From positions 1 through 64,000 of the forward strand of contig NZ_MJLZ01000015.1 in assembly GCF_003666245.1 (NCBI RefSeq): 64,000 nucleotides of DNA, given 5' to 3'. Shown here piece by piece: positions 6,471-22,366 of this stretch. Under the pieces are notes generated by a model, which was not told the origin of the DNA, did no database searches, and was given only the letters and a program-made list of their open reading frames with translations. Position numbers and translations under genes: made by a program. Within the stretch, counting starts at the first letter, position 1. Each line of letters begins with the position of its first letter. The stretch comes from Brenneria alni. Its GTDB lineage: Bacteria; Pseudomonadota; Gammaproteobacteria; Enterobacterales; Enterobacteriaceae.

Positions 6471-6793
6471 GCAGCCTTTTCGATCTGCACCAGAGAAATC
6501 AACTGCACCAGCCAATAGCAGGATTCTGACACCTTAACTCAACCCACCTCCACTCACAGGAGAACTTGAACCGATACCGGAGGGGGATCAGGACGATCCG
6601 GGGGATAACCAGCTAACGCTGGCGGCTGCTCAGAGAGCACAACCGAAGCCCCACAACACCTCAACGGCTGCCGCCCCGGCGCTCAGGTATCGTTCGCAGC
6701 CCCGACAAAAATCAGGGGCTATCAGCCTATGCGCCGGGGAAGGTTGTATCTGTTTTGGATTTTGCGGTAATCATGAAAAGGGGACATGTAAAA

Positions 6794-7675
6794 ATGAGTC
6801 TTCTGGAGCAGGAAATGAAAACGCTGGCGCGACAGGCGGGCGGTAGCCATAAAACCGTCCACGACCGTATTAGGCTGGCTCAGCGATTTTGTGAGCGCTT
6901 ACTGGGGCAGAATGTACAGATCCGCCGGGTGGAGCAACTGAAAGCCCGACATATTGAGAATTACATTCGTGGGCGGCAGGAACAGGGCATAACGAAACGT
7001 AGCCTGCAAAACGAGATGGCGGCGATCCGCTGTCTGTTGAAGCAGGCCGGGCGTGATCGGTTAGCAGCCAGTGAACGGCTGTCCAATAAATCGCTCGGCT
7101 TGTCCGGCGCATCCCGCAACGGCACCCGGCGGGCGATTACGGCGGAGTATTATCGGCAGGTGCTTGAAATCGCTCGCGCAAAAGACGCCGGGATGGCGGC
7201 GGCGCTGGAACTTTCAAAGTTGATAGGCCTGCGTTCACAGGAAGCGGTGCAGTGTGCGCAATCGCTTAGGACGTGGAAACAGGCGCTGGAGCGTGATGAA
7301 ACCCGGCTGACCATCGTTTTCGGCACCAAAGGCGGACGGTCCCGCGAGACAATAATTCTGGACGCTGGCGCAGTCAGAAAAGCGCTGGAAAATGCGCTGG
7401 CTGTGGCAGAACAGCGCAATGGCAGGCTGATTGACAGGCCCGACCTGAAAAGCTCGATGAAATATTGGCACGGTCAGGCTTCGCGTATCGGCTTGACTGG
7501 CGCATATTCCCCGCATTCATTGCGCTACGCCTGGGCGCAGGATGCCATTCGTCATTATCTGGCGCACGGATTCAGCGAAAAAGAAGCGCTGGCGCTGACG
7601 GCGATGGATTTAGGTCACGGCGACGGGCGCGGGCGTTATGTGGCGCAGGTTTACGGACGGCGGGGAGAGGAGTGA
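6794..7675 (+). CDS. Integrase-domain tyrosine recombinase
   Basis: The product has about 293 residues from the ATG at 6794, with AAGGGG 11 bases upstream; other in-frame starts lie at 6755 and 6773. An N-terminal SAM-like helical DNA-binding domain (residues ~1-100) is followed by a tyrosine-recombinase catalytic domain: LSKLIGLRSQEAV (first Arg), SPHSLRYAWAQDA (HxLR), MDLGHGDGRGRYVAQVY (final His and Tyr). It is the short integrase-domain type often found near P4-like integrases in enterobacterial islands. It converges on the integrase at 7915-9174. Its recombination site is unknown. Confidence 0.85.
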   Translation: MSLLEQEMKTLARQAGGSHKTVHDRIRLAQRFCERLLGQNVQIRRVEQLKARHIENYIRGRQEQGITKRSLQNEMAAIRCLLKQAGRDRLAASERLSNKSLGLSGASRNGTRRAITAEYYRQVLEIARAKDAGMAAALELSKLIGLRSQEAVQCAQSLRTWKQALERDETRLTIVFGTKGGRSRETIILDAGAVRKALENALAVAEQRNGRLIDRPDLKSSMKYWHGQASRIGLTGAYSPHSLRYAWAQDAIRHYLAHGFSEKEALALTAMDLGHGDGRGRYVAQVYGRRGEE

Positions 7676-7914: not shown

Positions 7915-9174
7915 TCAGGCAACCTGAATATGCCTCTCAAAACGGTAAGCCGGGATGAATTTCTGCCGGCAGGCGTCGAGATAGTCCGACCACCATTGCA
8001 TCATCTGCGTGCGTTCGTCGAGGTGCTCCGCCTTGTGGATATAGGCGGCGCGAACGTGGTTACGCTCTTGATGGCTCATCTGCCGCTCCACGGCATCTTT
8101 TGACCAGCGGCCTGATTCAATCAACGCGCTACAGGCCATCGTGCGGAAACCATGACCGCAAACGTTCACCTGCGTGTCATAGCCCATCGTGCGCAGCGCC
8201 TTGTTGATGGTGTTTTCGCTCATCGGTTTGCGCGGGTCGTGGTCGCCGGGAAACAGCAACTCACTGCTACCGGACAGCAGTTTTAGCTGCTTCAGTACAG
8301 TTACCGTCTGTGTTGACAGCGGCACCAGATGCGGTGTTTTCATCTTCGCACCGCGCTCTGAATAACGCACGCCCGGAATGGGTTCACGTTGCGCGGGGAT
8401 AGTCCACATTGCGCCATCCAGATCGATCTCCGTCCAGCGGGCAAAGCGTAGCTCGCTGGAGCGAATAAAGATCAGCAGGTTAAGCTGCACCGCCAGCCGG
8501 GTTAGGATCCTGCCGGAATAGCCTTCTATCCGTTCCAGCATCTCCGGCAGTTTTTCCAGCGGCAGGGCAGGGTAATGGTTTTTTGGCGGCGGGGTGATAG
8601 CGCCGCAGAGGTCATTGGCCGGATTACTGGCAATCAGCCCCTCCTGTACCGCATAGCGCATGATCGCCGTGGTGCGCTGCTGTATCCGCGCGGCGGTTTC
8701 CAGATTGCCTTTTCTCTCTGCCACCCGCAGCGGGATTAGCAGATCGGCCGTTTTCAGGTCGGTAACGGGGAATTTACCGATCAGCGGAAAGACGTGCAGT
8801 TCCAGCGAGCGCAGGGCTTTGGCGGCATGGGCTTCAGTCCAACGGATATTACCCGCCACCCACTTGCGGGCGATCTCTTCAAAGGTATTGCCGCTTTTGC
8901 GCGAATGTTTCTCCTGCTGCTTTTTTACGCCGGGATCGTCGCCCGCGCTGAGTACCAAGCGGGCTTCCTCGCGTAGCTTGCGGGCATTTGCCAGCGTGAC
9001 GGTGGGGTAAGCGCCAAACGCCAGCTTCTTCTCCTTGCCGCCGAAGCGGTACTTAAGATGCCAGAGCTTGGAACCGTTGGGTTTAATCAGCAGGTATAAG
9101 CCCTGCGCGTCGCTGAGTTTGTAAGGTTTATCGAGCGGCTTGACGCTTCGGATGGCGGTATCTGTCAGAGGCAT
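7915..9174 (-). CDS. int: P4-type tyrosine integrase (DUF4102 family)
   Basis: This 419-residue site-specific recombinase is of normal length for the P4/CP4-57 group. The N-terminal DUF4102 arm-binding domain (LTDTAIRSVKP, LSDAQGLYLLIKPNG, GAYPTVTLANAR) is followed by the core-binding domain and the catalytic domain. The catalytic residues are Arg in IRSSELRFARW, HGFRT, the His in QMSHQERN and the Tyr in AAYIHKAEHLDER, so all are intact. The gene is read away from the tRNA-Phe 3' end at 9338-9387, with its start 163 bases from the site, the usual arrangement of a P4-like integrase next to its own attachment site. It would catalyse integration and excision at tRNA-Phe. Confidence 0.95.
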   Translation of the reverse strand: MPLTDTAIRSVKPLDKPYKLSDAQGLYLLIKPNGSKLWHLKYRFGGKEKKLAFGAYPTVTLANARKLREEARLVLSAGDDPGVKKQQEKHSRKSGNTFEEIARKWVAGNIRWTEAHAAKALRSLELHVFPLIGKFPVTDLKTADLLIPLRVAERKGNLETAARIQQRTTAIMRYAVQEGLIASNPANDLCGAITPPPKNHYPALPLEKLPEMLERIEGYSGRILTRLAVQLNLLIFIRSSELRFARWTEIDLDGAMWTIPAQREPIPGVRYSERGAKMKTPHLVPLSTQTVTVLKQLKLLSGSSELLFPGDHDPRKPMSENTINKALRTMGYDTQVNVCGHGFRTMACSALIESGRWSKDAVERQMSHQERNHVRAAYIHKAEHLDERTQMMQWWSDYLDACRQKFIPAYRFERHIQVA

Positions 9175-9244
9175 GGTGGGGGCTCCATAGTTTATCGAAC
9201 CGGCAGGCCCCCAATTAAGCCCCCAAAAACTACGGATGTCAAAA

Positions 9245-9275
9245 AATCTGGTAGTACCTGTTGGTACTCCAGATT
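9245..9275. repeat. Hairpin between int and att
   Basis: AATCTGG-T-AGTACC (9245-9258), a TGTT loop and GGTACT-CCAGATT (9263-9275) form a near-perfect 13-bp stem with one bulged T. It lies between the integrase start and the attachment site. Without a U-tract it is more likely an integrase or excisionase arm site, or a regulatory hairpin in the int leader, than a terminator. Confidence 0.6.
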
Positions 9276-9337
9276 CTTATCAACTTACTGATTTTTCAAC
9301 GTTCCCGGACGCATAAGGACATCCTGAAACTAAATTA

Positions 9338-9387
9338 TGGTGCCCGGACTCGGAATCGAACCAAGGACACGAGGATTTTCAATCCCC
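9338..9387 (-). other. att site: 3' end of tRNA-Phe
   Basis: On the minus strand these 50 bases are the 3' part of tRNA-Phe(GAA), from the anticodon stem-loop with GATTGAAAATC through the T arm to the terminal CCA (complement at 9338-9340). By comparison with the standard enterobacterial tRNA-Phe I count one mismatch, in the anticodon stem. Beyond 9387 the match stops: D-arm and acceptor 5' sequence are absent or garbled, so this is an attachment-site copy and not a working tRNA. tRNA-Phe is the classical target of SPI-7/PAPI-type ICEs. Here int lies on one side and parA on the other. Confidence 0.85.
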
Positions 9388-9435
9388 GTGCTGAGATAGC
9401 CGGAAACAAGCTGCACATTCAATCGAGTGTGCAAA

Positions 9436-10323
9436 ATGAATATTTTACCCGTAATTTCGACAAAGGGCGGCGAAGGAAAATCTACTCAAGCTGCTAACTT
9501 GGCAGGTTTTTTTGCCGATGCAGGTTTAAAAACCCTATTGATTGATGGCGATTATTCTCAGCCAACTGCCAGTAGTATTTATGCACTAGAGCATGAGGCT
9601 CCATTTGGATTGTTCGAGCTGCTAATGCAGACAGCCGATCTAAACCAGCCGGATAGTATAATTTCTCGCACCGCCATACCCAATCTCGATCTCATTATCT
9701 CCAACGATCCTGATGATTGCCTTTCTAATGCCATGCTGCATGCTCCTGATGGACGTATGCGTCTCAAGAACATCCTTCAGCATCAAAGTTTTCAGGATTA
9801 CGACGTCATCATGATCGACTCGAAAGGCGCTGCTGGCGTGATGGTTGAGCTCGTTGTTCTGGCTGCCACAGAGAATGTCGTTGGGGTGATTAAACCGATA
9901 CTTCCAGATGTTCGGGAGTTCATGCGTGGAACGGTGCGTTTAATGTCCCGCTTACTAGCGTTGCAGGCTTACGGGATACAGATACCTGATATCAAAATTC
10001 TGGCCAATTGCGTTGAGAACACATCATTGGATCGTAAGACTCTGGAAGAATTGGGTAATATCGTTTCCGAGAGAAAATACCTCCAATCCGAAAGCATAAA
10101 CATTTCCATACTTGAAACAAAAATAGACCAGCTTGAAGTCTATAAACGCGGCCACGCCTTTGGGCAGCCCGTCCATCGCCTTGAATATGTGACCGACCGC
10201 AAAAGCCCGGCCGCGGCAGTGACCATGCATAGCCTCGCCTGCGAGCTCTTTCCACATTGGAAAGCACAGTTCGATTCCGTGTTACGGAATCAAACTGGTG
10301 CCGGGGAGGTGGGAAATGTTTAA
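9436..10323 (+). CDS. parA: ICE ParA-family ATPase
   Basis: This ParA/Soj-type ATPase of about 295 residues is the first gene inside the ICE next to att, as in SPI-7 and PAPI-1. Residues ~8-17 hold the deviant Walker A STKGGEGKST. LIDGDYSQPTAS is the switch region and DVIMIDSKGAAG the Walker B. The C-terminal KRGHAFGQPVHRLEY is conserved among these ICE proteins. The ATG at 9436 is used; a GTG at 9427 is an alternative. With ParB it maintains the excised circular form. In this class loss of the ParA homologue (soj of PAPI-1) destabilises the element. Confidence 0.95.
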   Translation: MNILPVISTKGGEGKSTQAANLAGFFADAGLKTLLIDGDYSQPTASSIYALEHEAPFGLFELLMQTADLNQPDSIISRTAIPNLDLIISNDPDDCLSNAMLHAPDGRMRLKNILQHQSFQDYDVIMIDSKGAAGVMVELVVLAATENVVGVIKPILPDVREFMRGTVRLMSRLLALQAYGIQIPDIKILANCVENTSLDRKTLEELGNIVSERKYLQSESINISILETKIDQLEVYKRGHAFGQPVHRLEYVTDRKSPAAAVTMHSLACELFPHWKAQFDSVLRNQTGAGEVGNV

Positions 10324-10336
10324 CGTTCAGCCACGT

Positions 10337-10744
10337 TTATGCCGGAATGACATCAGTCAGCGTGCTTTTCGACCAAATATCCGTTCCAATGAACGGATCA
10401 TCCAATCGGTCGAGTTGCCTCTCAATGTCCCATTGTTTGGGACCCCATTCAGGATCGGCTGCAAAGGCGGTCCAGTAGTCAGTCAGAGCCAAAGAAATGT
10501 CTTTATCGGCCATATTCTTAATGGACTCTGGCGTCCACTGATGCTGCTTAATCAGCGCATACTCCAATGCTTCTCGCGGGGAACTGGGTCTGAATTGCTG
10601 ATGCCAGTTATGCGTCACACGAAGCCATTCTCCCAGCCACAGCAATCGGTAGGACATCTGGATCAGTTCTGCACCGGGATACTCCGAATACTTTTCTGCT
10701 GCCTGCCGGTAAAAAAATTTACAGCGTTTTTCAAAAGAATCCAT
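10337..10744 (-). CDS. Unassigned protein, opposite strand within the ICE core
   Basis: This 135-residue protein (MDSFEKRCKFFYRQ..., GAELIQMSYRLLWLGEWLR, SPREALEYALIKQHQWTPE) is predicted helical and rich in Trp and Arg. I do not recognise it. Its amino-acid composition is protein-like, whereas the overlapping plus-strand frame (10298-10978) is Ser/Leu/Arg-rich noise. It is convergent with parA (13-base gap) and divergent from the gene at 10975 across 230 bases, so it interrupts the otherwise one-directional maintenance operon. It may be an inserted cargo gene or a local regulator. Confidence 0.65.
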   Translation of the reverse strand: MDSFEKRCKFFYRQAAEKYSEYPGAELIQMSYRLLWLGEWLRVTHNWHQQFRPSSPREALEYALIKQHQWTPESIKNMADKDISLALTDYWTAFAADPEWGPKQWDIERQLDRLDDPFIGTDIWSKSTLTDVIPA

Positions 10745-10974
10745 GTCGGATCTCCGTTGTTAGGTTCTCTGTTGTTGGGTTTACTGCCAGTTCCTTCTGA
10801 CCGAAGTCGCCAAACTAAGCGGTCAGAAAATGATCTGTCAGTAGATGGGAGTGTATCCCCCGCAACGGTAGATTCGACGCCCTTTTCAGAAATTTACAGG
10901 ACCTTACTCAATACGCTGTTTTTACATGACTTTAATGTAGTTTCAGTAAGTGATCACGCATGGGAGGGGAAACA

Positions 10975-11379
10975 ATGAAGACTCTCCATCGTGCGTTCTG
11001 TTCCTGTAACCATTGGCGCTATCAAGACATTGATGAAAAGACCGTTTTTTTTGAAACATTCCACCAAGAGCATGCTGGTGATCGCTTGCAGTCGCTTATT
11101 GCGAATATATGGGGTGTCCCTGAATCTTCAGTCATTATTTATAACGTCTTTTCTGAGCAAGAATTGCGTTTGCTTTCAATAGATGACTCGTCTGCCAGTG
11201 GTGATGAAAGACTGTTTGAAATCGGGTGGAGTGGCGAGAAACAACAACCTATTTATGTAAATCAGGAGGACTGGCCGCTCATGTTAGTTTCTCCTCGTAC
11301 TCACGAACGCCTGGTGAAGGCATTCATGAGTCTTAGCCAGATTGGTTGTGGCGAAATGAAGGAGGCTGCCCATGGCTAA
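10975..11379 (+). CDS. Unassigned ICE protein upstream of dnaB
   Basis: The product has 134 residues from the ATG at 10975, which follows GGGAGGGGA at ideal spacing. It starts MKTLHRAFCSCNHWRYQD and has a C-terminal LISPRTHERLV-like segment. No known domain is recognised. It overlaps the dnaB start by 8 bases, so the two are translationally coupled. Its fixed place between parA and dnaB suggests a role in replication or stability of the circular ICE. Confidence 0.75.
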   Translation: MKTLHRAFCSCNHWRYQDIDEKTVFFETFHQEHAGDRLQSLIANIWGVPESSVIIYNVFSEQELRLLSIDDSSASGDERLFEIGWSGEKQQPIYVNQEDWPLMLVSPRTHERLVKAFMSLSQIGCGEMKEAAHG

Positions 11380-12748
11380 TTCTCCGTCTACGGTCGTGTC
11401 GTCTCTGCCTTTGTCTTTGGAAGCTGAGCAGTCAGTTCTCGGCTCATTGATGCTGGAAAATAACCGCTGGGATGATGTGGTTGAGCGGATCGCTGCCAGC
11501 GATTTTTATAACCGGGCACATCAACGGATATTTCATGCCATGCAACGACTGGTCGACAGCGGTCAGCCGATCGACCTGATAACCCTTTCTGAATCGATGG
11601 AGAAAGACCCTAATAGTCCATTAGAATCAATAGGGGGATTTGCCTACCTAGCAGAACTGGCGAAGAACACTCCGAGTGCGGCAAATACGAATGCCTATGC
11701 TGAGATTGTCAGAGACAGGAGCCAGGCTCGTAAGTTGATCATGCTTGGTAAGAAGATCAGTGCCGATGCTATGTCCACGGCGCATGGGCGAATAAAGGTT
11801 TCTGATATTGCCGAACAGGCTGAACAGGCGCTTTTTGACATATCGGAACAGAGAGAAGCGCAGCGTGAAGTTACAGCACAAGAGGCACTGATTCAGGTTG
11901 TTGACCGACTGGAGCTCAATAACAAGACCCCGGATGGGATAACGGGAACACCAACAGGGTTTATCGAACTCGATAAAGAGACTTGTGGCCTTCAGGAAGC
12001 GGATCTGATCATCCTGGCTGCAAGGCCTTCAATGGGAAAAACCGCATTGGGGGTCAATATAGCGGAAAACGCATTGGGGCGGGTACCTGATAAACCTGTT
12101 TTCATCTTCAGCCTGGAAATGCCGGCAGAACAACTAATGATGCGTATAGCGGCATCTATTGGCCGCGTCAGCATACAGGCCATGCGTAGCGGGCAAATGA
12201 ATGATGAGGACTGGGGACGCTTCTCTGATGCGATGAAGCTCATCCAATCATGGGGTGATCGCCTGGTCATTGACGACAGCAGTTTTCTCACTCCATCACT
12301 AGTGCGTTCCCGCCTACGTCGCTTGATCCGCAAATACGGTAAGCCAAGCCTGGCCATGATTGATTACTTGCAAATGATGAGTAGTCCAGGTGCCGAGAAC
12401 CGTACTCAGGAAATCGCGGCGATTTCTCTTGGCCTCAAAGGTTGTGCAAAAACGTTCAAAATCCCCATGCTGGTTTTATCCCAGTTGAACCGTTCCCCTC
12501 AGGCGCGGGCAGATAAGCGCCCAACGCTTTCTGATCTGAGAGACGGTGGTTCACTGGAGCAAGACGGTGATTTGATCATGTTTATTCATCGTGAAGAGGC
12601 TTACGACCCGAACACTCCAGACAAAGGATTGGCCGAAATAATTATTGGTAAACAACGACAAGGCCCGTTGGGAACGGTGAAATTGAAGTTTGATGCGCAG
12701 TTTACCCATTTTGGTGAATGGAATCTTGGCTATGGGGAGAAATACTAA
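11372..12748 (+). CDS. dnaB: DnaB-type replicative helicase
   Basis: This 458-residue hexameric helicase is of normal DnaB length. The N-terminal helical domain (LPLSLEAEQSVLGSLMLE to about residue 110) is followed by a linker and the RecA-like motor, with Walker A AARPSMGKTALG near residue 216, FSLEMP, the Walker B segment LAMIDYLQMM, LSQLNR, and SDLRDGGSLEQDGDLIMFIHRE. It would unwind the excised ICE for its own replication or for transfer strand synthesis. It sits between parA and parB, as in SPI-7-type ICEs, with parB overlapping its stop by one base. Confidence 0.96.
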   Translation: MANSPSTVVSSLPLSLEAEQSVLGSLMLENNRWDDVVERIAASDFYNRAHQRIFHAMQRLVDSGQPIDLITLSESMEKDPNSPLESIGGFAYLAELAKNTPSAANTNAYAEIVRDRSQARKLIMLGKKISADAMSTAHGRIKVSDIAEQAEQALFDISEQREAQREVTAQEALIQVVDRLELNNKTPDGITGTPTGFIELDKETCGLQEADLIILAARPSMGKTALGVNIAENALGRVPDKPVFIFSLEMPAEQLMMRIAASIGRVSIQAMRSGQMNDEDWGRFSDAMKLIQSWGDRLVIDDSSFLTPSLVRSRLRRLIRKYGKPSLAMIDYLQMMSSPGAENRTQEIAAISLGLKGCAKTFKIPMLVLSQLNRSPQARADKRPTLSDLRDGGSLEQDGDLIMFIHREEAYDPNTPDKGLAEIIIGKQRQGPLGTVKLKFDAQFTHFGEWNLGYGEKY

Positions 12749-14472
12749 TGAGCAAAAAAATAGCCTCGTTGCAACTCGGTAGTGCGATGCTGCAAGGAAG
12801 TCGTCAGCCAGCAACGGCACAGGTTTCCGCATTGCCGGTCAATGAAATGCCGATGGTGCTGACGTTGGATCAGATGGGGCCTCATCCGGATAACCCTCGA
12901 ACCAAACGTAACTCTAAATATGACGAGATCAAAGAGTCTATCCGTCACCGCGGTCTGGATACGGTACTTAAGGTAACTCGTGATCCAAACTTACCTGATA
13001 TTTATGTATTCAGTGATGGTGGTAATACACGTTATGAAATTCTAAGCGAATTGTGGCAAGAGACAGGTGAAGAAAGTTTCTTTCGCCATACGGTTATTTT
13101 CAAACCGTGGCCCGGCCGGCTTCAGTGCGTCATTGGCCATCTGGCTGAGAACGAAGTCCGTGGTGAGTTGACGTTTATCGAAAAAGCCTTTGGTATCCAG
13201 AAAGCCCGTGGCATTTACGAAGATCAACTGGGTAAATCCGTATCATTGCGTGAGTTGGCCACGTTGCTGACAGAGGCTGGTTTACCGATCGATCATTCCA
13301 GTATTAGCCGGATGGAGAGTACGATAGTCTTCCTGTACCCCTATATGCCAAATTTGTTGGAGTCAGGGTTAGGGCGTCCTCAAATACAAAGTCTTCTGTC
13401 CCTAAGACATGATGCCGAAAAAATTTGGTCTGAATATTCCCTGACCGCTTCCTCTTCAATACTGTTTGGGGATGTTTTTGGTAACTGCTGCCAAAAATTC
13501 GACTCGCCGGATGACTGGTCACTGGAGATGTTTCGAGATGAGTTTATTGGCGACCTGGTCAGTGCCCTACCGCACCCTTCGCTGAACTACGATCGCTGGG
13601 TGATGGAGCTAGATCCGAAAGTGCGTAATCAACGTAAGCTTTTTGGTGAAACCGGACCATTACCCGCGTTCGTCCATGAGTCTCCGCCTGAAGACACAAA
13701 TAAGGACAAAAGGGATGATGATGTTGGTTCAAAATCTACGCTTCCATCTTCCTCACAAGTTGGAAAGGATGACGATAGGCAGCAATTTTCTGCACCGGCT
13801 TCAACATCTGTGCCGCCTTCGTTAAACAGTACGCTTGATGAACATCATCAGCATCCCGATGAAGACGACGAACATTATGATGATGAGAATATAATAGAGG
13901 ACGGTGGATGCCAGGGAAATAACAAAGCCTTTTCTCATGACGACAACCAGAGCGAGTTCTCTGATCGGGCGAACTCGAGTGAAGGCTCGAATAATCAGAC
14001 GACATATTCTTTACCTTCAGGCGATCATTCGACGCAGCAACTGGCATCTTCTGCTCCTGCACATTCTTTTGCTAATGGGGGCCTGGAGCCAGTCTCTGAT
14101 ATCTGGCAGATCTCTGCATTCCAGGATGATATTGAGCATTTACAGGATAGCGCTTACAGACTGGCATTTGAGTTGGCTGAAGCCATGGGGTATCCCGATG
14201 AAATTCAGGAAGCAAAGGGGCCTCTCGATGCCGGCTATATCGCATCAACATCCAAAGTGCCATTCATTCTCTTTCTCAATGGGCTGACTGGCGAACAAAG
14301 CGGTGAACCATTTAACATGTTCAGCTTCTGTCTGAATGTTATCGGCTCTGCAAGCAAAGGGGATTCTCCCGTTCTTGATGATATGTACACCGTAAAAACA
14401 TTTCGCCTTATTCGAGTATTGCGTCGTTTACGTGAACATCAGCGGCAGATCGCAACGGAACAAACAGAGTAG
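12748..14472 (+). CDS. parB: ICE ParB-family partition protein
   Basis: This 574-residue protein is of the PFGI-1-class ParB type. Its N-terminal ParB/Srx-like domain (MVLTLDQMGPHPDNPRTKR, IKESIRHRGLDTVLKV, FSDGGNTRYEIL) is followed by an HTH region (LRELATLLTEAGLPIDHSSISRME). A long acidic, Ser/His/Asp-rich disordered stretch spans residues ~315-450, with a conserved helical C-terminus after it. The ATG at 12748 overlaps the dnaB TAA. It would load on parS-like sites and work with ParA. The candidate repeats at 16.7 and 17.2-17.5 kb are possible targets. Confidence 0.93.
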   Translation: MSKKIASLQLGSAMLQGSRQPATAQVSALPVNEMPMVLTLDQMGPHPDNPRTKRNSKYDEIKESIRHRGLDTVLKVTRDPNLPDIYVFSDGGNTRYEILSELWQETGEESFFRHTVIFKPWPGRLQCVIGHLAENEVRGELTFIEKAFGIQKARGIYEDQLGKSVSLRELATLLTEAGLPIDHSSISRMESTIVFLYPYMPNLLESGLGRPQIQSLLSLRHDAEKIWSEYSLTASSSILFGDVFGNCCQKFDSPDDWSLEMFRDEFIGDLVSALPHPSLNYDRWVMELDPKVRNQRKLFGETGPLPAFVHESPPEDTNKDKRDDDVGSKSTLPSSSQVGKDDDRQQFSAPASTSVPPSLNSTLDEHHQHPDEDDEHYDDENIIEDGGCQGNNKAFSHDDNQSEFSDRANSSEGSNNQTTYSLPSGDHSTQQLASSAPAHSFANGGLEPVSDIWQISAFQDDIEHLQDSAYRLAFELAEAMGYPDEIQEAKGPLDAGYIASTSKVPFILFLNGLTGEQSGEPFNMFSFCLNVIGSASKGDSPVLDDMYTVKTFRLIRVLRRLREHQRQIATEQTE

Positions 14473-14478
14473 TAAAGG

Positions 14479-14751
14479 ATGGGAAAATTACGCTTACAAA
14501 GTGGCACCTATCATGAGGTGCTGCTAAATGCATTATCCAGTGCCATAAAAGCAAAAGAACGCTTGATACAAGATGCGTATACGGATGAGGTGCGGGAGCT
14601 GGATAGGAGTGGAGAAATACTCAGTCAGAATGATGAGTGTGAACGCTTCTTAAAAACTGCGAATGAATGTACGCCGTTACTTTCTGATTTTCGGTATATT
14701 CATGCGTATTTATCCGATAAGTATTTAGGCTGTTCAAAAAGAAATAAATAA
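14479..14751 (+). CDS. Small unassigned ICE protein
   Basis: This 90-residue protein starts MGKLRLQSGTYHEVLLNALS and is charged and mostly helical, with no recognised domain. It follows parB by 6 bases with AAAGGA just ahead of the ATG and precedes the DUF2857 gene by 24 bases, so it belongs to the same transcript. Confidence 0.7.
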   Translation: MGKLRLQSGTYHEVLLNALSSAIKAKERLIQDAYTDEVRELDRSGEILSQNDECERFLKTANECTPLLSDFRYIHAYLSDKYLGCSKRNK

Positions 14752-14775
14752 CACATTAAGCATGGAGTAAAAACA

Positions 14776-15387
14776 ATGAGTGAAAATTCACTACAAATAG
14801 CAAACGCATCCCAGTCAGCGAATAATTTGCTGACTCAATTAGTGATGGACTTGAAGAGTGGTTACATACGCCGCTGTGAGTCTCTCGGACTAAAACAAGA
14901 GGAAATGCAATTACTGCAAAGTCTGACGATCGAAGATCTTCATTATATTGCCAATAGTTCTGTTTCCGTATTGCAGTTCAGCCTTCATCACGAAAATTTT
15001 TACCGCCTGGTTCAACATGCCCGTCGCGAACAGATGCGCATACAGCGCATCGATCGTGCGTTGTCGCTGGGGGGATCGATTGAACTCATGCAACACATGT
15101 TTGGGTTATCCAGCCTGGAAGTCGCCAGTCGTCGTCGTATTGCAGGCATCGATGTACGCCCGGGGCGTGGTGTCGTCCTGAATGAAGATGAGAGCGCAGC
15201 ATTATGGCAACGTTGGCAACTTGCTGCTGTAGAGGATGCCGACAGCGGTGAAGGGTTGGATGTCATGATGTTGGCTTCAGAGCAGATGGATGTATCGCTA
15301 ACTGCCGTCTGGCACGCAGTCAGATCATGGAGTAAAGCGCATAGCGTGAATGTCCCCCATGCTGAATCAGCAAGAAAATCGGTATGA
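14776..15387 (+). CDS. DUF2857 family ICE protein
   Basis: This 203-residue protein is characteristic of the SPI-7 replication/maintenance block. It starts MSENSLQIANASQSANNLL and includes LTQLVMDLKSGYIRRCESLGL. A central region (QHMFGLSSLEVASRRRIAGI, then DESAALWQRW) has an HTH-like arrangement. The C-terminus (MDVSLTAVWHAVRSWS) resembles a second short DNA-binding helix pair. The ATG follows GGAGTAA. The function is not established; a DNA-binding role is my inference. Confidence 0.8.
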   Translation: MSENSLQIANASQSANNLLTQLVMDLKSGYIRRCESLGLKQEEMQLLQSLTIEDLHYIANSSVSVLQFSLHHENFYRLVQHARREQMRIQRIDRALSLGGSIELMQHMFGLSSLEVASRRRIAGIDVRPGRGVVLNEDESAALWQRWQLAAVEDADSGEGLDVMMLASEQMDVSLTAVWHAVRSWSKAHSVNVPHAESARKSV

Positions 15388-15399
15388 CGGAGGTTAAGG

Positions 15400-15654
15400 A
15401 TGAGTACCCGTTTATGCGAAATCATGCCAGGGTTATACGCCCCGGCAACGGTTCCAAAGGCACATTATCACAAAGCTAAAAGTCAAATCCGGCGCTTTCG
15501 AGAAGGAGAACGAAATTATACACGACTTACAGAGAGAGGTTCGAAGTATTTAAAAATAGATATAGGTCCATTCTGGCGGTTATTGAGTCGGAATCATGGG
15601 GATTCGTGGGAATTAATGAATCACGAACGTTATAACAAAGAAATACGTAAATAA
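15400..15654 (+). CDS. Small unassigned ICE protein
   Basis: This 84-residue basic protein begins MSTRLCEIMPGLYAPATVPK and continues HYHKAKSQIRRFREGERNYTRLT. It starts 13 bases after the DUF2857 stop behind a GGAGGTTAAGG ribosome binding site. No domain is recognised. The high Arg/Lys content suggests nucleic-acid binding, but nothing more specific can be said. Confidence 0.7.
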   Translation: MSTRLCEIMPGLYAPATVPKAHYHKAKSQIRRFREGERNYTRLTERGSKYLKIDIGPFWRLLSRNHGDSWELMNHERYNKEIRK

Positions 15655-15667
15655 TATGAGGTAGTGA

Positions 15668-15904
15668 ATGGATATTGAAATTACAGGATCGCTATTGATT
15701 GAGGCGATTGATGCCGCATTGGAAAAAAAGAAAGGCGTGGTTATTGATAGTTTTGATAAACAGTCACTGTATACCGCCAAACGGGAGATTGATGACGCGA
15801 TTATTCTGAGTGATCTCAGAGGGGAAATTGTGTCGAATTATGATTATCTTATTGACATGGAGACATTGGAATATTCAAAGAAGAGCCAATCAGAATATGA
15901 CTAA
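15668..15904 (+). CDS. Small unassigned ICE protein
   Basis: This 78-residue acidic protein starts MDIEITGSLLIEAIDAALEKKK, with TGAGGTAGTG 5 bases upstream. No domain is recognised. Its end overlaps the start of the 40-residue reading frame at 15897, which in turn overlaps the replication gene, making a tightly coupled chain of translation. Confidence 0.65.
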   Translation: MDIEITGSLLIEAIDAALEKKKGVVIDSFDKQSLYTAKREIDDAIILSDLRGEIVSNYDYLIDMETLEYSKKSQSEYD

Positions 15905-16019
15905 TCAGTGTATTTATGCTGCATCTGCTTATTCGGATGCAGAAACAAGTGCATTGATGCTTTTTATCGCGAGCCAACAACCAGATGAAAAGCAGTCAGC
16001 GATAAGGATAACGATATGA
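15897..16019 (+). CDS. Possible 40-residue linker peptide
   Basis: This short frame (MTNQCIYAASAYSDAETSAL...) starts inside the end of the previous gene. It ends in ATATGA, whose ATG is the start of the STY4528-type gene. The overlap at both ends argues for a real, translationally coupled peptide that feeds ribosomes to the replication gene. It has no recognised domain and the composition alone is not decisive. Confidence 0.45.
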   Translation: MTNQCIYAASAYSDAETSALMLFIASQQPDEKQSAIRITI

Positions 16020-17230
16020 ATCTGCCGGCAGACAGCCTGATAGCCTACACCGTTGAGAAGATGAACCTCCGGTTGGCTGAGCGAATACCCGGCGATGACG
16101 CGGGACAACTGCGTAGCGGGCTACTTTACATGGGGAACGTACATGATGCGTATCCCCGGCGTTTGCTATTAGATACACGGCTATCTCCTCTGGATAAGAT
16201 GGCCTGGATGATGATCCGTCTGTATGCCCAGCAAAATGAAGGGGCGATTTTTCCCACCTATGATGAGTTACAGCTTCAGTTAGCTTCCCCACACAAAGGT
16301 AAGGCGTCCCGGGAGACAGTCAGTCGTGTTCTGTTGATGCTGAGGATCACCGGTTGGCTGAGTTTGTGTAAACGCGTTCGTGACGAAAAAGGACGAGTAC
16401 GCGGGAACATCTATGCGCAGCATGATGAACCACTCTCATTTCGTGATGCTGAGATTTTCGACCCCGGTTGGTTGGATACTGTTGCTGAAGCATGTCAGAA
16501 CAAGAACAAAACTATCAGTCAGACAGCATACGATGTTCTGAACGAAATCAAGAATGATACAACGATGCGTCATCGCCATAGCCGTATTGCACTTATCGAA
16601 AATCGCTTAGATGCGGTTCAAACGCCGCAGCAAATGGCAGCCAGACAGCGTACTCGTTACCCCAGTTCGGAATCCGAACTAAGGAAAAAATTACTGAGTT
16701 CGGATGCAAAATCACTGAGTTCGGGATCCGAACTCAGTCATTCAGAAGGGGATAAATCACCCAGTTCGGAATCCGAACTCAGTGGAATTTCAAAGGGTTG
16801 TCACTCAGTTCGGAAATCGAACCGTTACGTACGTAGTAATACACACAGTGTAAAAAGAAATACGTACGTACTGCCGGACGCTTTCGTGCGGTTGTTGCCA
16901 GTGGAAGACCGTGGCATGGTGACAGACCAACTTCAGGCGCTGGCTATTGAACAAGCTGAACTGGTGCTACAAGCGCTGGACAGAGCGCTATCGGAAGGAC
17001 GTCTCAGCAACCCAATAGGCTGGCTGCTGGCTGTGTTGAAGCGGGCCCGTGATGGGAAGCTATTTGTCCAGAAAACACCTTCTGCGCAGCCGGCATCATC
17101 CCAAATGGAACCCCCTTCTCCCACAACTGGCGGTGCCATGCCTAAACCAACCACAACCGTTCAGGTATCGGATAGGGTACATGTTCAGAATATAATTGCC
17201 GAGATCCGCCGTAAGTGTACAGATAGGTGA
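16016..17230 (+). CDS. STY4528-family ICE replication protein
   Basis: This 404-residue protein is of the SPI-7 STY4528 replication family. The N-terminal half looks like a winged-helix replication initiator (LLLDTRLSPLDKMAWMMIRL, FPTYDELQLQL, KASRETVSRVLLMLRITGWL). A low-complexity middle of residues ~215-270 repeats SSESEL units, followed by a conserved C-terminal domain (VLPDAFVRLLPVEDRGMVTDQL, NPIGWLLAVLKRAR). The SSESEL repeats are encoded by near-palindromic DNA repeats that could themselves be binding sites. It would act as initiator for replication of the excised ICE. Confidence 0.88.
   Translation: MNLPADSLIAYTVEKMNLRLAERIPGDDAGQLRSGLLYMGNVHDAYPRRLLLDTRLSPLDKMAWMMIRLYAQQNEGAIFPTYDELQLQLASPHKGKASRETVSRVLLMLRITGWLSLCKRVRDEKGRVRGNIYAQHDEPLSFRDAEIFDPGWLDTVAEACQNKNKTISQTAYDVLNEIKNDTTMRHRHSRIALIENRLDAVQTPQQMAARQRTRYPSSESELRKKLLSSDAKSLSSGSELSHSEGDKSPSSESELSGISKGCHSVRKSNRYVRSNTHSVKRNTYVLPDAFVRLLPVEDRGMVTDQLQALAIEQAELVLQALDRALSEGRLSNPIGWLLAVLKRARDGKLFVQKTPSAQPASSQMEPPSPTTGGAMPKPTTTVQVSDRVHVQNIIAEIRRKCTDR
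16663..16822 (+). repeat. Cluster of TTCGGA palindromes inside the replication gene
   Basis: Five related sites lie in 160 bases. There are 17-bp palindromes AGTTCGGAATCCGAACT at 16664-16680 and 16763-16779, and a larger palindrome with 11-bp arms ACTGAGTTCGG / CCGAACTCAGT at 16714-16738. A half-site CTGAGTTCGGAT lies at 16694-16705 and a degraded copy starts at 16807. Two copies of TACGTACGTA follow at 16826-16835 and 16861-16870. In protein they encode the SSESEL linker. They resemble iterons or a partition site embedded in the initiator gene. Confidence 0.8.
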
Positions 17231-17239
17231 ATGCTATAT

Positions 17240-17521
17240 TGGTTAAAAAGCAATCGCTGTTGACAGTGTCAACAGCGATTAAAAAATAACCACATTGTGG
17301 ATTCAGGAAGAATAACGGGCTGTTTTTTGGTGGTGAGTGTTGAAGTGGTTAAAAAGCAGGCGCTGTTGCCACTGGCAACAGAGATTAAAAAATAACCACA
17401 TGTTAAATTCAGGTGCTGGAGCAGGGTGATTTTGGGCGATAAGGGTTGAAGTAGTTAAAAAGTAGGCGCTATTGCGCCGCGCAACACCGATTAAAAAATT
17501 GTCATTTTGTGATGTACAGTG
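17240..17521 (+). repeat. Three-copy 106-bp tandem repeat with internal hairpins
   Basis: Copies begin at 17240, 17346 and 17452, a spacing of exactly 106 bases. Each starts with GGTTAAAAAG or AGTTAAAAAG, then a hairpin (GCTGTTGACAGTGTCAACAGC in copy 1, shortened here to its arms GCTGTTGAC/GTCAACAGC; CTGTTGCC/GGCAACAG in copy 2; a GC-rich variant in copy 3), then GATTAAAAAATAACCACA and an ATTCAGG tail. The third copy is the most diverged. It fills the gap between the replication gene and the TIGR03761 gene, where an origin or partition locus would be expected. Confidence 0.88.
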
Positions 17522-17684
17522 CTGAACGAGTGGGGTCTTGATGGTTCGTGTATTCATCTTCTTATTCCAGCGATTTATATTTCCGCATTCTCAAAACTGG
17601 TTTTGAATTGAGCTGGCAACTCCTTTGCCCTGAATATTTCTACTCCAAATCAGAAATATTTCAGGTCAGCACGAGGAGCCAGCG

Positions 17685-18473
17685 ATGCCAGATACAGATA
17701 AAAATGAAGCCGTCCATCAGGGACCAACTTCACAGGAGCCGACAATTTCACCTCCTGCCAGTCAGCCTACCCGTGAACGAGAATCCCGTGCCGGCGCATT
17801 GAAATCGTCTTTAACTCTCGATCTCCACACGCATTATGCTATCAGGTTATGGGACGGGCGTCGTAAAGAACAAACCGCAACAGCCGATATGAATTCACAA
17901 AGACCCCCGCGCCATATCTTTAGCATGCCGCAAGTGATATGGCGGGCTGGCAAGGCATATCAGGCATCAGTAGCTGATAACCCTTATGCAGATGCGCTGC
18001 TGGTTAAGCTAGAAGATGCTATTGAGGCATCGACAAATAAGGTACAACAAGCGGTTAAAGAGATATCGGAGACCCTGAAGTCGATTCCGGTGTCTATCAC
18101 GCTAACTGATGTCGTTTCTGTTTCTCCATTAAATATCGGTGTTTATAGTAGTTCTCCACTTGGATATCGTTGTGTTTGGTTATTGGTTGGCTATGACCAA
18201 TTGGCGATGAAGGTGTTCCAAGCCTTCCACTATGGTCTTATTTCCCGGGCAACTCGCGATCAATATTTGGATAAGGGAGGATACGCGATCAGACAGATAT
18301 ACAGTATCGTGCAGAATTACCGCGCTGTTACTGTTACCCGCAATGATATTCTTGCCAGAACGCCAGCAGGCCTTAAAGCTATTGAGCTTTATGGGGAGCC
18401 CGACGCAGACATTATGTCTGGGAAACTACGATCTTCTTTTTCTGCGCGGCTTTCTTCTACTGGGAGGGAGTGA
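17685..18473 (+). CDS. TIGR03761 (PFL_4669) family ICE protein
   Basis: This 262-residue protein matches the PFL_4669-type ICE family, a standing neighbour of topB. A disordered N-terminus of ~40 residues is followed by LTLDLHTHYAIRLWDGRR, then a helical domain with DNPYADALLVKLEDAIE. The C-terminal part (PLGYRCVWLLVGYDQLAMKVFQAFHYGLI, RQIYSIVQNYR) is the best conserved. The stop overlaps the topB ATG. The molecular role is not established; AcaB-type regulators share this fold family by annotation, so regulation is possible. Confidence 0.82.
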   Translation: MPDTDKNEAVHQGPTSQEPTISPPASQPTRERESRAGALKSSLTLDLHTHYAIRLWDGRRKEQTATADMNSQRPPRHIFSMPQVIWRAGKAYQASVADNPYADALLVKLEDAIEASTNKVQQAVKEISETLKSIPVSITLTDVVSVSPLNIGVYSSSPLGYRCVWLLVGYDQLAMKVFQAFHYGLISRATRDQYLDKGGYAIRQIYSIVQNYRAVTVTRNDILARTPAGLKAIELYGEPDADIMSGKLRSSFSARLSSTGRE

Positions 18474-20485
18474 TGCGCTTATTTTTATGCGAGAAACCTT
18501 CCCAGGCCAAAGATATAGCTAAGGTGATGGGGGTAACCCAACGTGGTAAGGGATTTCTTTTTGGAAAAGACATCACAATTACCTGGGCTATTGGTCATCT
18601 TCTAGAGTTAGCTAATCCCGAATCATATGGTGATGAGTTTGCTCAATGGAACCTTGATTCTCTGCCAATGTTGCCATCTCAGTGGAAACTTCTTGTAAAG
18701 AAAGATACGTCGGATCAGTTTTCTGTCGTTAGTCGTTTGTTGAAGCAGGCAGACGACGTTGTTATTGCGTCAGATGCAGATAGAGAAGGGGAGGTACTGG
18801 CCAGGGAATTACTGGATTATTGCCATTTTACCGGAAATGTTAAACGTTTATGGCTGAGTGCGCTTGACGACGCCAGCATCCGAAAAGGATTAGATAATCT
18901 TCTCCCAGGCGAGAAAACGGTTCGTCTTTATTATGCTGGGATGGGGCGCAGTAAAGCGGATTGGCTCATTGGTATGAATTTGACCCGCCTCTATACCTTA
19001 AAGGCTCGTGATAAAGGTTTTGGGCGGCGTGATGTGTTGTCTATCGGACGAGTGCAAACGCCAACGATGGCGCTCGTGGTTCGTCGTGATCTTGAAATCG
19101 ATAGTTTTGTGCCCAAGCCCTATTGGCGAGTTTTGGCTGAGTTAGAAAAAGACGGTCTTCAGTTTAGCGCTACCTGGATTCCGGCCTCCGGTTATTGTGA
19201 TAGCGAACATCGATGCATACAGCAAAATGCAGCATTGGCTGTAGAGCAACTGTGCCGAAATACGGCAACAGCGGTGGTGCTCGATGTCATAATGAAACGC
19301 GATAAGATTCCAGCACCCTTATGTTTTAGTTTAAGCACCCTCCAGCAAGTTTGTTCCCGTAAATGGGGGATGGGGGCAAATCAGGTACTTGGTATTGCAC
19401 AAGCACTGTATGAAACACATAAAGCAACTACGTACCCTAGAACGGATTGTGGGTATTTACCTGGATCAATGAAAACAGAGATTGACGAAGTACTTTCTGC
19501 GCTTGTGCAATCCGATCCTATGGTAGGCCCAGTTGTGCAAAGAGCCGATCGCTCCTTTGTTTCCCGTGTCTGGAATGATAAAAAAATCACGGCGCACCAT
19601 GCTATTATTCCTACCAGGCAATCCTTTGATATCGCGAAATTATCACAGGATGAATTGAAGGTTTATTCCCTCATTCGGCAAAATTATTTGGCTCAATTTT
19701 TTCCGCTTCAGGAAGCTGATGTAACTGAAGCCACGTTTAATATCGGTGGGCAACTATTTCGGACCCGAGGACGTATTAGTGTTGTGCTTGGCTGGAAGGC
19801 TCTTTTTGTCGACGAGAAAGAAGATAATGTAGCCACTAAGGAGCAGGATGATAACGGCGGTGGTGAGTTACCCAAATTAAGTCAAAACGATTTATGTCAG
19901 TTAAAAGGAGGTGAGGTTAAGTCTCTGCAAACTAAACCGCCTTCTCATTTCACTGATGGAACGCTCATTGCTGCTATGGAAAATGCGGCAAGTTTTGTTA
20001 CTGATCCTGAGTTGAAGAAAGTACTTCGTGATAATGCGGGCTTGGGAACAGAGGCAACGCGCGGTGGAATTATTGAAACATTGTTTAAACGGAATTATCT
20101 GGAGAAAAAAGGTGCCCATATTCACGCGACCCTAATCGCCAGAGAACTGGTAGCGGCTTTACCAGATACGTTAACCAGCCCTGGCATGACGGCGTTGTGG
20201 GAGCAGTCTTTGGAAGATATATATCAGGGAAAACTCTCTCTTGAAGTCTTTATGCAGCGCCAGACAGAATGGACACGCATCTTGGTTGAAAAGGGTAAAC
20301 AGCAGACAATTTCATTAACACCTCCCATTACCCCGCCCTGCCCAACATGTGGTGGTATAACTCAAAGAATAAAAGGCAGTAATGGATTGTTCTGGGGATG
20401 TATAAAGTACCCCCTTTGTAAAGGCGTTGTAAGCGAAGGAACAAAGACGAAAGGCAAATCGGGTAAAAGGACAGTAAAAAACTAA
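18473..20485 (+). CDS. topB: DNA topoisomerase III
   Basis: This type IA topoisomerase has 671 residues. The TOPRIM domain shows FLCEKPSQAKDIA (catalytic Glu near residue 7) and ASDADREGEVLARE (~98). The active-site tyrosine is in TTYPRTDCGYLP (~320), SIGRVQTPT is present, and a C-terminal zinc ribbon (CPTCGGITQR...WGCIKYPLCKG) uses four cysteines. ATG at 18473 overlaps the stop of the previous gene. Enzymes of this kind decatenate and relax single-stranded regions; here it probably resolves replicated or transferring ICE DNA. It is typical for SPI-7-type ICEs and distinct from the chromosomal TopB. Confidence 0.96.
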   Translation: MRLFLCEKPSQAKDIAKVMGVTQRGKGFLFGKDITITWAIGHLLELANPESYGDEFAQWNLDSLPMLPSQWKLLVKKDTSDQFSVVSRLLKQADDVVIASDADREGEVLARELLDYCHFTGNVKRLWLSALDDASIRKGLDNLLPGEKTVRLYYAGMGRSKADWLIGMNLTRLYTLKARDKGFGRRDVLSIGRVQTPTMALVVRRDLEIDSFVPKPYWRVLAELEKDGLQFSATWIPASGYCDSEHRCIQQNAALAVEQLCRNTATAVVLDVIMKRDKIPAPLCFSLSTLQQVCSRKWGMGANQVLGIAQALYETHKATTYPRTDCGYLPGSMKTEIDEVLSALVQSDPMVGPVVQRADRSFVSRVWNDKKITAHHAIIPTRQSFDIAKLSQDELKVYSLIRQNYLAQFFPLQEADVTEATFNIGGQLFRTRGRISVVLGWKALFVDEKEDNVATKEQDDNGGGELPKLSQNDLCQLKGGEVKSLQTKPPSHFTDGTLIAAMENAASFVTDPELKKVLRDNAGLGTEATRGGIIETLFKRNYLEKKGAHIHATLIARELVAALPDTLTSPGMTALWEQSLEDIYQGKLSLEVFMQRQTEWTRILVEKGKQQTISLTPPITPPCPTCGGITQRIKGSNGLFWGCIKYPLCKGVVSEGTKTKGKSGKRTVKN

Positions 20486-20520
20486 GAATAAACTGGTTAC
20501 CTGACAAGCGGTGTTTTTGA

Positions 20521-20760
20521 TATGGTAATCCCGCTTTGATGCAATTTGTACCTCGCAGGCTACGAGGTAGTGCGACGTTCTTACGGGGAACGGAGCGCTA
20601 TCAGCCCAGCAGATGGCTACCGCACACTCAGTCGATCTGTAAGACGCATTCCCTCCGTGAAAAGCGCGTCAGGAAACTCCCCGGAGCTACGTTGAAAACC
20701 TCAGGGACATGGTACATCCCGTTAGACGGTGCCGGATAAAACCGGCACCGTTTTAATTTT
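20521..20760 (+). ncRNA. Candidate structured RNA after topB
   Basis: The ~240 bases after topB have no gene but many hairpins: ACCTCG/CGAGGT (20550-20568), CGTTC/GAACG (20576-20592), GGGA/TCCC (20704-20720). A perfect 10-bp terminator stem with a T-rich tail follows at 20726-20760. The pattern is that of a discrete small RNA or a 3' processed leader. No promoter was clear, and no Rfam family can be assigned by eye. Confidence 0.45.
20726..20760 (+). terminator. Intrinsic terminator
   Basis: ACGGTGCCGG (20726-20735), a 6-base loop and its exact complement CCGGCACCGT (20742-20751), followed by TTTTAATTTT. It ends the structured region downstream of topB. Confidence 0.88.
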
Positions 20761-20824
20761 TGCAGATGTCACCTAATTCACTCCATTGGTCAGCTGTTCT
20801 TACAAACTGTAGTAATGTCCTTTA

Positions 20825-20852
20825 ATGGCACCAATCTTTGGTGCCGTTTTTA
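20825..20852 (+). terminator. Second intrinsic terminator
   Basis: GGCACCAA-TCT-TTGGTGCC (20827-20845) followed by GTTTTTATT. It lies about 75 bases after the first terminator and insulates the DUF3577 leader from topB-side transcription. Confidence 0.88.
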
Positions 20853-20929
20853 TTATTACTGTGGTTAAAACAATTTAGGTTTGACGATATTGCACTGTGA
20901 TTTAAAAATGAACGTGCTTAATCGTCATC

Positions 20930-21215
20930 TCTGATGACCACCAATGATCCAGTGGCTTGTGAGGATCGCCTTCGGGTAGTCACAAAAGAACACTTCTGTA
21001 GCCTGCAAGGAAGAACACGTTCAGTTACGTGTGGTAAATCTGCCAGCCTTTGGAAGCAGATATCACCAGGTAGTTTAAACGCCGTTGCGAGCGTGGTGAT
21101 GAAGGTCCGTTTAACTAACCAGACAAGTCAGGATAACAGCTGATCCTGACCCTTGACGGGAAAGACAATTCCCTCAAGGGGAATGTTTTCTCCGTTGCAC
21201 CTTATTTAACACTCC
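20930..21215 (+). ncRNA. Leader of the DUF3577 gene, candidate DUF3577 RNA motif
   Basis: This 5' leader of ~290 bases carries multiple stems: TTGTGA/TCACAA, CACGT/ACGTG, CTGC/GCAG, GTCAGGAT/ATCCTGAC (21127-21150) and CCCTTGA/TCAAGGG (21150-21180), the last close to the translation start. The next gene encodes a DUF3577 protein. A conserved cis-regulatory DUF3577 RNA motif upstream of such genes has been described from comparative genomics. The match here is by position and stem content, not by alignment. Confidence 0.55.
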
Positions 21216-21230
21216 ATGGAGAAATACATT

Positions 21231-21719
21231 ATGTCTGCAAATAACAACGCTCAAACTCAAAATAATTCTCAAACCGGCAAATCAGAATATTTTAATCTTC
21301 TTATTAATGGTCTGGGATATATCAGTAATATCCGTCAGGTTAATGGACAGTCTGGAACATTCACAAGCTGTGTCATTAATGCCTTAAGCGGCCCGGCAGA
21401 TAAAGCGAACTACGTTCGTTTTGATGTCACTGTGGCAGGTAAGGAGGCGACTAGTCTTATTAATCGCTGCCAAAAAGCGGTTGATGAAGACAATAAGGTT
21501 CTTATCGGATTCACTTTGAGTAATCTCTCTGCTGAGATTTTCACTTTGAAGTCCGGGGAACATACCGGCGAACAGCGTATTAGCCAGAAAGCCCGCTTGA
21601 TCAAGGTAGAGTGGATTAAGATAGGCCAGAAAATGGTCCATAAAGCTGAAAAATCTGACTCCGTACCCCCTCAGAACGGAGCTGCTGCTCCTAAAGAGTA
21701 TGCGGAAAATTCGTTCTGA
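21231..21719 (+). CDS. STY4534-family ICE replication protein (DUF3577)
   Basis: The product has 162 residues from the ATG at 21231, with GGAG 9-12 bases upstream. After a Gln/Asn-rich start it reads EYFNLLINGLGYISNIRQVNG, FTSCVINALSGPAD, YVRFDVTVAGKEA and VLIGFTLSNLSAEIFTL, an OB-fold-like pattern comparable to an SSB. This is the DUF3577 protein of SPI-7-type ICEs, next to ssb. It probably binds DNA during ICE replication. It has its own leader RNA and its own terminator. Confidence 0.9.
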   Translation: MSANNNAQTQNNSQTGKSEYFNLLINGLGYISNIRQVNGQSGTFTSCVINALSGPADKANYVRFDVTVAGKEATSLINRCQKAVDEDNKVLIGFTLSNLSAEIFTLKSGEHTGEQRISQKARLIKVEWIKIGQKMVHKAEKSDSVPPQNGAAAPKEYAENSF

Positions 21720-21739
21720 TTAACAGGTACTCATTTTAA

Positions 21740-21763
21740 ACACCTCGCTTGCGGGGTGTTTTT
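21740..21763 (+). terminator. Intrinsic terminator between the DUF3577 gene and ssb
   Basis: ACACCTCGC-TT-GCGGGGTGT (21740-21759, one G-U pair) followed by TTTTTC. It lies only 20 bases ahead of the ssb ATG, so some ssb message must come from its own promoter or by read-through. Confidence 0.85.
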
Positions 21764-21784
21764 CAATGCAAAAGGAGAAAAGAT

Positions 21785-22333
21785 ATGGCTTCACGCGGTG
21801 TTAACAAAGTTATCCTAGTTGGCCATCTTGGTCAAGATCCCGAAATTCGCTATATGCCGAATGGTGGTGCAGTTGCCAACATGACATTAGCGACCTCTGA
21901 GACCTGGCGTGATAAGCAAAGCGGTGAACAGAAAGAGAAGACCGAATGGCACCGTGTTGTGCTCTTTGGAAAACTCGCTGAAGTTGCTGGCGAATATCTT
22001 CGCAAAGGCTCTCAGGTTTACATTGAAGGTTCATTACAAACTCGTAAATGGACCGATCAGGCTGGCGTCGAACGCTATACGACTGAAGTTGTCGTTAACG
22101 TTGGCGGCACGATGCAGATGCTAGGTTCTCGCCCTAATGCTGGAAGTAATAATCAAAGTGCAGCCAGCACTTCATGGGGAAAACCTCAACAGCCAGCTGC
22201 GCCGGCGCATAGTGGTACACCTCAGGCTCAACGTTCTGCGGGCAATGAACCGCCGATGGATTTTGACGACGATATCCCGTTTCTCGGGTTTGGTTATGGC
22301 GTATGTCGCAAGGCAATTTATGCCATATCGTAA
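21785..22333 (+). CDS. ssb: ICE-encoded single-stranded DNA-binding protein
   Basis: This 182-residue SSB has a typical OB-fold: [59 protein letters not shown] Pro/Gln/Ser-rich linker follows. The acidic tip DFDDDIPF, normally the extreme C-terminus that binds partner proteins, is followed by 16 extra residues ([16 protein letters not shown]). Such tails occur on other ICE SSBs. The ATG follows AAGGAG. It would protect transferred or replicating single strands. Confidence 0.95.
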
Positions 22334-22339
22334 ACACTG

Positions 22340-22366
22340 GCACCAGTCTTTGACTGGTGCTTTTTT
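22340..22366 (+). terminator. Intrinsic terminator after ssb
   Basis: GCACCAGT (22340-22347), a 5-base loop, ACTGGTGC (22353-22360) and TTTTTT. A perfect 8-bp stem with a U-tract. Confidence 0.92.

Follow-up and report, generated by a model that had tools for sequence, protein, structure and literature searches.

What kind of joint places an integrase gene, the 3′ end of a tRNA-Phe gene, and the parA gene of an ICE side by side? This arrangement occurs in bases 1–64000 (hereafter, the window, 64,000 bases in length) of C15, a 76,136-base contig in a genome assembled as 132 contigs. We conclude, with a probability of roughly 93%, that a heterologous tandem array occupies tRNA-Phe (pheU), with an ICE to the right and an older P4-type island to the left, and that this joint is the seam between them.

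Two elements around a tRNA-Phe 3′ end

Open reading frames, Pfam domains, and BLAST comparisons bear out the initial annotation in placing an integrase gene (int1) and a ParA-like gene on either side of a tRNA-Phe 3′ end (Table 1). That end had been described as 50 bp long, spanning 9338–9387. The tRNA end is real, but the exact repeat shared with the genome's own tRNA-Phe genes is 48 nt (9338–9385), base 9386 being C in the window and T in both of those genes; against E. coli tRNA-Phe, the match covers 50 nt with one mismatch. The BLAST E value for the match to the tRNA-Phe of contig C39 alone is 2.9e-18, far beyond chance. ARAGORN called no complete tRNA in the 64,000 bases of the window. 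A direct repeat of the tRNA 3′ end separates the two elements.

Table 1. Features of the window on either side of the tRNA-Phe remnant
Feature	Coordinates	Strand	Details
int1 island, part on C15	1..9337	.	MazE/PemK-like pair, HTH regulators, candidate defence protein
Integrase-domain protein near int1 in relatives	6755..7675	+	Pfam Integrase_1 / Phage_int_SAM_2
int1, tyrosine integrase (P4-type) of the displaced island on the left	7915..9174	-	419 aa; Pfam Arm-DNA-bind_3, Phage_int_M, Phage_integrase; start codon towards att
Island-side spacer, int1 to att	9175..9337	.	Of the kind that separates int1 from intact tRNA-Phe in G005 and G007
att	9338..9385	-	48-nt tRNA-Phe 3′ end, seam common to both elements; 48/48 vs tRNA-Phe of C39 and C68
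SPI-7/PFGI-1/HAI2-type ICE, parA end into conjugation genes	9386..64000	.	NCBIfam matches
ICE ParA	9427..10323	+	298 aa; Pfam AAA_31, CbiA
ICE DnaB-type helicase	11372..12748	+	Pfam DnaB_C
ICE ParB (TIGR03764, ICE_PFGI_1_parB)	12718..14472	+	389 bits, cutoff 143.75
STY4528-family replication protein	16016..17230	+	411 bits, cutoff 130
ICE DNA topoisomerase III (topB)	18470..20485	+	846 bits, cutoff 597
STY4534-family ICE replication protein	21216..21719	+	186.8 bits, cutoff 160
TIGR03759-family ICE protein	42251..42967	+	263 bits, cutoff 126.4
Coupling protein TraD (TIGR03754)	45165..47285	+	1111 bits, cutoff 647.55
TIGR03749-family ICE protein	51501..52436	+	341 bits, cutoff 138.8
Conjugative transfer ATPase TraC (TIGR03744, traC_PFL_4706)	54818..57673	+	1432 bits, cutoff 520.6

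On the right side, every member of the conserved ICE core (ICE ParB, STY4528, topB, STY4534, TraD, and TraC), together with the TIGR03759 and TIGR03749 proteins, scores above its curated cutoff, which assigns the element to the SPI-7/PFGI-1-type ICEs. The parA gene of this type is present in a single copy in the genome (one further match is weak, at 29% identity). Beyond the window, C15 runs to base 76136, where it ends in a Tn3-type transposon with Tn3 transposase and resolvase domains.

On the left side, int1 points away from the tRNA 3′ end. The label "P4-type," used in the initial annotation and retained here, derives from the domain make-up of the protein. Orthologues of int1 that are 94–95% identical directly adjoin an intact tRNA-Phe in two genomes of the same genus, G007 and G005; G005 and G007 match positions 1–686 of a query comprising window bases 8700–9900 at 95% and 93%, respectively. 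The neighboring integrase-domain gene likewise adjoins int1 in G002, G005, and G007, and in E. coli NCTC9112 and UCPROB-002, an annotated integrase-domain gene stands at its side. The partner of the ICE is a different, P4-type island and not a second ICE. No outer att of the int1 island was found on C15, and the outer end is taken to lie to the left of base 1.

Several other features of the window were recorded. A 581-aa protein without a Pfam match (721–2466, minus strand) matches the candidate defence family PDC-S71 at 403 bits and has a 98.6% identical copy in an island of G006. A MazE-like antitoxin and PemK/ChpB-like toxin pair occupies 5322–5987 (plus strand) of the displaced island. A direct repeat (3851–4267 and 4351–4767, 78.7% identical) overlaps two HTH regulators, paralogues of each other that resemble restriction control proteins, and an inverted repeat (487–742 and 49128–49381, 76.6% identical) has a copy in each element, first in the displaced island and then in the ICE.

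The probable int2 end of the ICE and other tRNA-Phe sites in the genome

Among the contigs tested, ARAGORN called two intact tRNA-Phe genes in the genome, one on C39 and one on C68. The order on C39 is dsbD–yjdC–tRNA-Phe–int2–nickase–UvrD; we take this tRNA-Phe to be pheU, the regulator to be yjdC, and its neighbor to be dsbD-like. The int2 product (349 aa) points towards the tRNA and contains a Phage_integrase domain without an arm domain; it resembles XerA/D/C but scores below the cutoffs of those families. A TraI_2-domain (nickase) protein and then a UvrD-domain protein are encoded beyond it. Relative to the far-end proteins of two E. coli ICEs, int2, the nickase, and the UvrD protein are 49–52%, 35–37%, and 63–64% identical, respectively. 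As with parA, int2 is present in a single copy, with two further, weak matches at 29% identity.

On the simplest reading of these sequences, C39 and C15 would represent the two ends of one ICE, with int2 marking the end at pheU and parA the end at the window's seam. The contigs are separate pieces of the draft assembly, joined by synteny and copy number and not by unbroken sequence, and two separate, partly lost ICEs could also have supplied the two ends. Taken as one element, C15 and C39 place parA and int at opposite ends, at 48-nt tRNA-Phe repeats (the published length for such ICEs is ~49 bp), and each of the two elements has an integrase of its own, int1 in the window and int2 on C39. The initial annotation had suggested looking for a second integrase and an intact tRNA-Phe at the far end of the ICE. 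Both are present on C39, linked to the window by synteny and copy number, and in relatives a single molecule carries both together with the seam.

We could not place the left end of the array, which may in principle lie elsewhere in the genome; searches of the genome with the pheU-downstream flank of G002 and with a terminator pattern retrieved no chromosomal flank downstream of pheU.

The genome contains two further sites of this kind. On C68 (L010, 6089–9515), an intact tRNA-Phe adjoins speC, by which neighbor it is identified as pheV, and is followed by an int1-like integrase (447 aa, with the same domain make-up as int1) and a relaxase-domain gene; this stretch is probably a mobilisable island. 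On C72 (L009, 145–546), there is a second seam: a truncated gene resembling int1, ~19 nt of tRNA remnant, and then sequence common to the island ends of G002, G004, and G006. At the P4-type seams in C72, G004, and G006, the tRNA piece in common spans ~19 nt with a mismatch before the sequences diverge, compared with ~48 nt at ICE seams.

Corresponding arrangements in relatives

The own-genus set comprised nine genomes including that of the window (G000), all of which matched the 8700–9900 query; the stretches were read in six of the other eight (all except G001 and G008). G002 carries, on a single contig, the order speC–tRNA-Phe–int2–nickase–UvrD–traC–traD–topB–parB–dnaB–parA–remnant–int1–integrase-domain gene, with one base of the tRNA end missing from the remnant. 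G004, also on a single contig, contains three units: dsbD–tRNA-Phe–ICE–parA–att–second int–~22 kb–att–int1, with int1 in two frames. Two P4-type islands stand in series at tRNA-Phe on a single contig of G006, while in G005 and G007, the tRNA-Phe bearing int1 is next to speC. G003 has a 72-aa integrase fragment, then a remnant, then parA. With this query, a parA match was present in four of the nine genomes (G000, G002, G003, and G004), and in all four, the seam has an integrase gene or a piece of one on its other side.

A wider sample covered 246 genomes of the family at a threshold of 1e-20, with the best two candidates per genome scored, so that joints may be missed. Of these genomes, 49 matched, G000 among them. 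Besides G000, one genome among the matches listed, G065 (another genus of the family), matched both halves of the query on a single contig (102–1201 of 1201, 75%). Its int1 is shortened, with residues 1–125 and 374–419 found; the left integrase is present only as fragments in G003 and G065. Matches to parA itself included three Pectobacterium loci (95–96% identical), one Hafnia locus, and one MAG. In P. brasiliense (L016), the ICE seam is flanked by an integrase with 94% identity to the one on C68, together with a mobA-like gene; in P. peruviense (L015) and P. polonicum (L014), the ICE parA end meets terminator-like sequence. The Hafnia ICE (L017, parA 63%) likewise ends at terminator-like sequence.

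The same joint was found in complete E. coli chromosomes. Of 5426 complete genomes, three contain a locus that spans 80% or more of a 2.7-kb joint query. One chromosome, that of NCTC9112, reads yghD–IS3–island–integrase-domain protein–int1 (frameshifted)–att–ParA–ICE–UvrD–nickase–int2–tRNA-Phe–yqgA–speC, and UCPROB-002 matches this order from the island through to speC. An int1 island directly at an intact tRNA-Phe appears in at least 11 E. coli rows among the matches listed. Both single states are thus represented: the island at an intact tRNA-Phe (G005, G007, and E. coli) and the ICE parA end at chromosomal sequence (P. peruviense and E. coli).

The ParA gene of the window ICE is matched at megablast level in 49 of the 5426 E. 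coli genomes, and we inspected 15 of these, which are not a random sample: 12 were hand-picked, and the others were NCTC9112, UCPROB-002, and UCPROB-001 (the last from its search row only). A whole-length tyrosine recombinase gene lies beyond the seam in eight of the 15 (NCTC9112, UCPROB-001, UCPROB-002, S19-651, JE86-ST05, SCU-106, E19035, and SF-088), at least three of these genes being frameshifted, and an integrase fragment is found there in two (SCU-171 and 5CRE51). The remaining five have a common spacer beyond the seam. In JNEC-KY177 and TUM1887, this spacer adjoins yghD, so that the ICE parA end directly meets the chromosome; STEC2018-553, TUM1886, and YZLc1-3 have it with rearranged or IS-bearing flanks. 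Four E. coli records (L072–L075, 3356–3433) carry a RefSeq "tRNA-Ser" annotation where the ICE seam has its tRNA-Phe remnant; this is probably spurious, as ARAGORN made no call in the 600-base stretches tested.

Probable order of insertion, competing explanations, and precedents

The array is best explained by successive insertions. A P4-type island carrying int1 would have entered the 3′ end of tRNA-Phe, with the gene rebuilt beside int1. A HAI2/SPI-7-type ICE with a different integrase, int2, would later have entered the rebuilt gene. The tRNA would then have been rebuilt again at the int2 end, leaving 48 nt of the 3′ end between the parA end and the older island. The array would read dsbD–yjdC–pheU–[int2–nickase–UvrD ... 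ICE ... parA]–att–[int1–island]. We infer the sequence of events, P4-type island first and ICE second, from this order: each insertion rebuilds the tRNA, so the newest element stands nearest the intact gene. An intact tRNA indeed adjoins int2 on C39 and does so on one molecule with the seam in NCTC9112, UCPROB-002, G002, and G004. The suggestion that two islands share one tRNA-Phe target is supported by the seam, by the second integrase and intact tRNA-Phe on C39, and by relatives that have this order on a single molecule.

An int–att–parA order is also, as the initial annotation noted, what the attP of a circle looks like; on that reading, the contig would show an excised ICE with int1 as its own integrase. 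We consider this extremely improbable. The integrase found with the nickase and UvrD genes of the ICE is int2, beside pheU and related to int2 of the E. coli ICEs; int1 adjoins intact tRNA-Phe in G005, G007, and E. coli; and the sequence to the left of the seam is more of the int1 island and not the int2 end. Very little weight can likewise be given to an assembly error in which the 48-nt repeat brought two unrelated contigs together. The assembly is fragmented, and the genome has three copies of a 34-nt core of the repeat, but the same joint is present in the complete chromosomes of NCTC9112 and UCPROB-002 and in single-contig G002, and it recurs with a shortened int1 in single-contig G065. 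Moreover, 48 nt is shorter than the usual read length.

The ICE and the int1 island might instead constitute one composite element that entered the host whole and was not assembled at the site. Partners of these two kinds are found together in at least two genera (Escherichia and that of the window), as well as in G065, yet the similarities are incongruent: between the window and G002, int1 is 96.9% identical but parA 67.7%. The sites also differ, lying beside speC in G002 and, as deduced, beside dsbD in the genome of the window, and the most similar ICEs, those of Pectobacterium, have either a different partner (L016) or plain terminator-like sequence (L014 and L015). A composite origin is accordingly an unlikely account. 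These three observations point to halves that were combined independently and to stacks that formed more than once.

Tandem accretion at tRNA genes, including tRNA-Phe, has already been published, so this kind of event is known. Proteus mirabilis AR379 is reported to carry ICEPm1 and ICEPm3 in tandem, one inserted into the attR of the other at tRNA-PheU, in a family with 52-bp repeats at tRNA-Phe (PMC11278526). Whereas those are two ICEs of one family, the array examined here pairs an ICE with a P4-type island whose integrase is of a different kind. HAI2 and PbN1_GI15 of Pectobacterium are described as SPI-7-like ICEs with 49-bp repeats, able to insert at either of two phe-tRNA genes, one of them next to speC; the integrase adjoins one repeat, and soj and topB genes are reported (PMC4814525). 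ICEs of the HAI2 type are reported to excise (PMC4814525; PMC3630108). The accessible text of PMC4814525 describes single elements and lacks the word "tandem," and the likeness to our ICE is drawn from that description. The composite asn-tDNA islands of Klebsiella pneumoniae, termed tandem accretion (PMC4891358), are like the array in having two islands, two integrases, and a repeat between them at one tRNA gene, but unlike it in the tRNA and the element families involved. The pheV and pheU genes are common island sites in E. coli according to a further source, the available part of which adds no tandem case (PMC7545054). The pairing of an ICE with a P4-type int1 island at tRNA-Phe was not met in the open-licence literature searched, as far as those texts were accessible.

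Given that the two 48-nt repeats of the ICE are identical, the ICE alone could still excise, which would restore pheU beside int1. This predicted state is of the kind present in G005 and G007, there at the speC-side gene. It is a more doubtful proposition that the stack is functional as such, with the nested repeats of two integrase kinds (48 nt at the ICE seam and ~19 nt at P4-type seams such as that of C72) letting the ICE either leave alone or carry the island in cis by way of the outer att.

For annotators, the locus is a warning that int and parA ends lying side by side do not imply a circle. For the biology of the family, it contributes to a comparative picture in which the tRNA-Phe locus grows by accretion, encompassing the island at an intact tRNA, the ICE end at plain chromosome, the stacked pair, and the triple stack. 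Whether an ICE carries a displaced island along is now a testable question; if the stack is functional, any ICE that inserts ahead of a resident tRNA-Phe island would spread that island.
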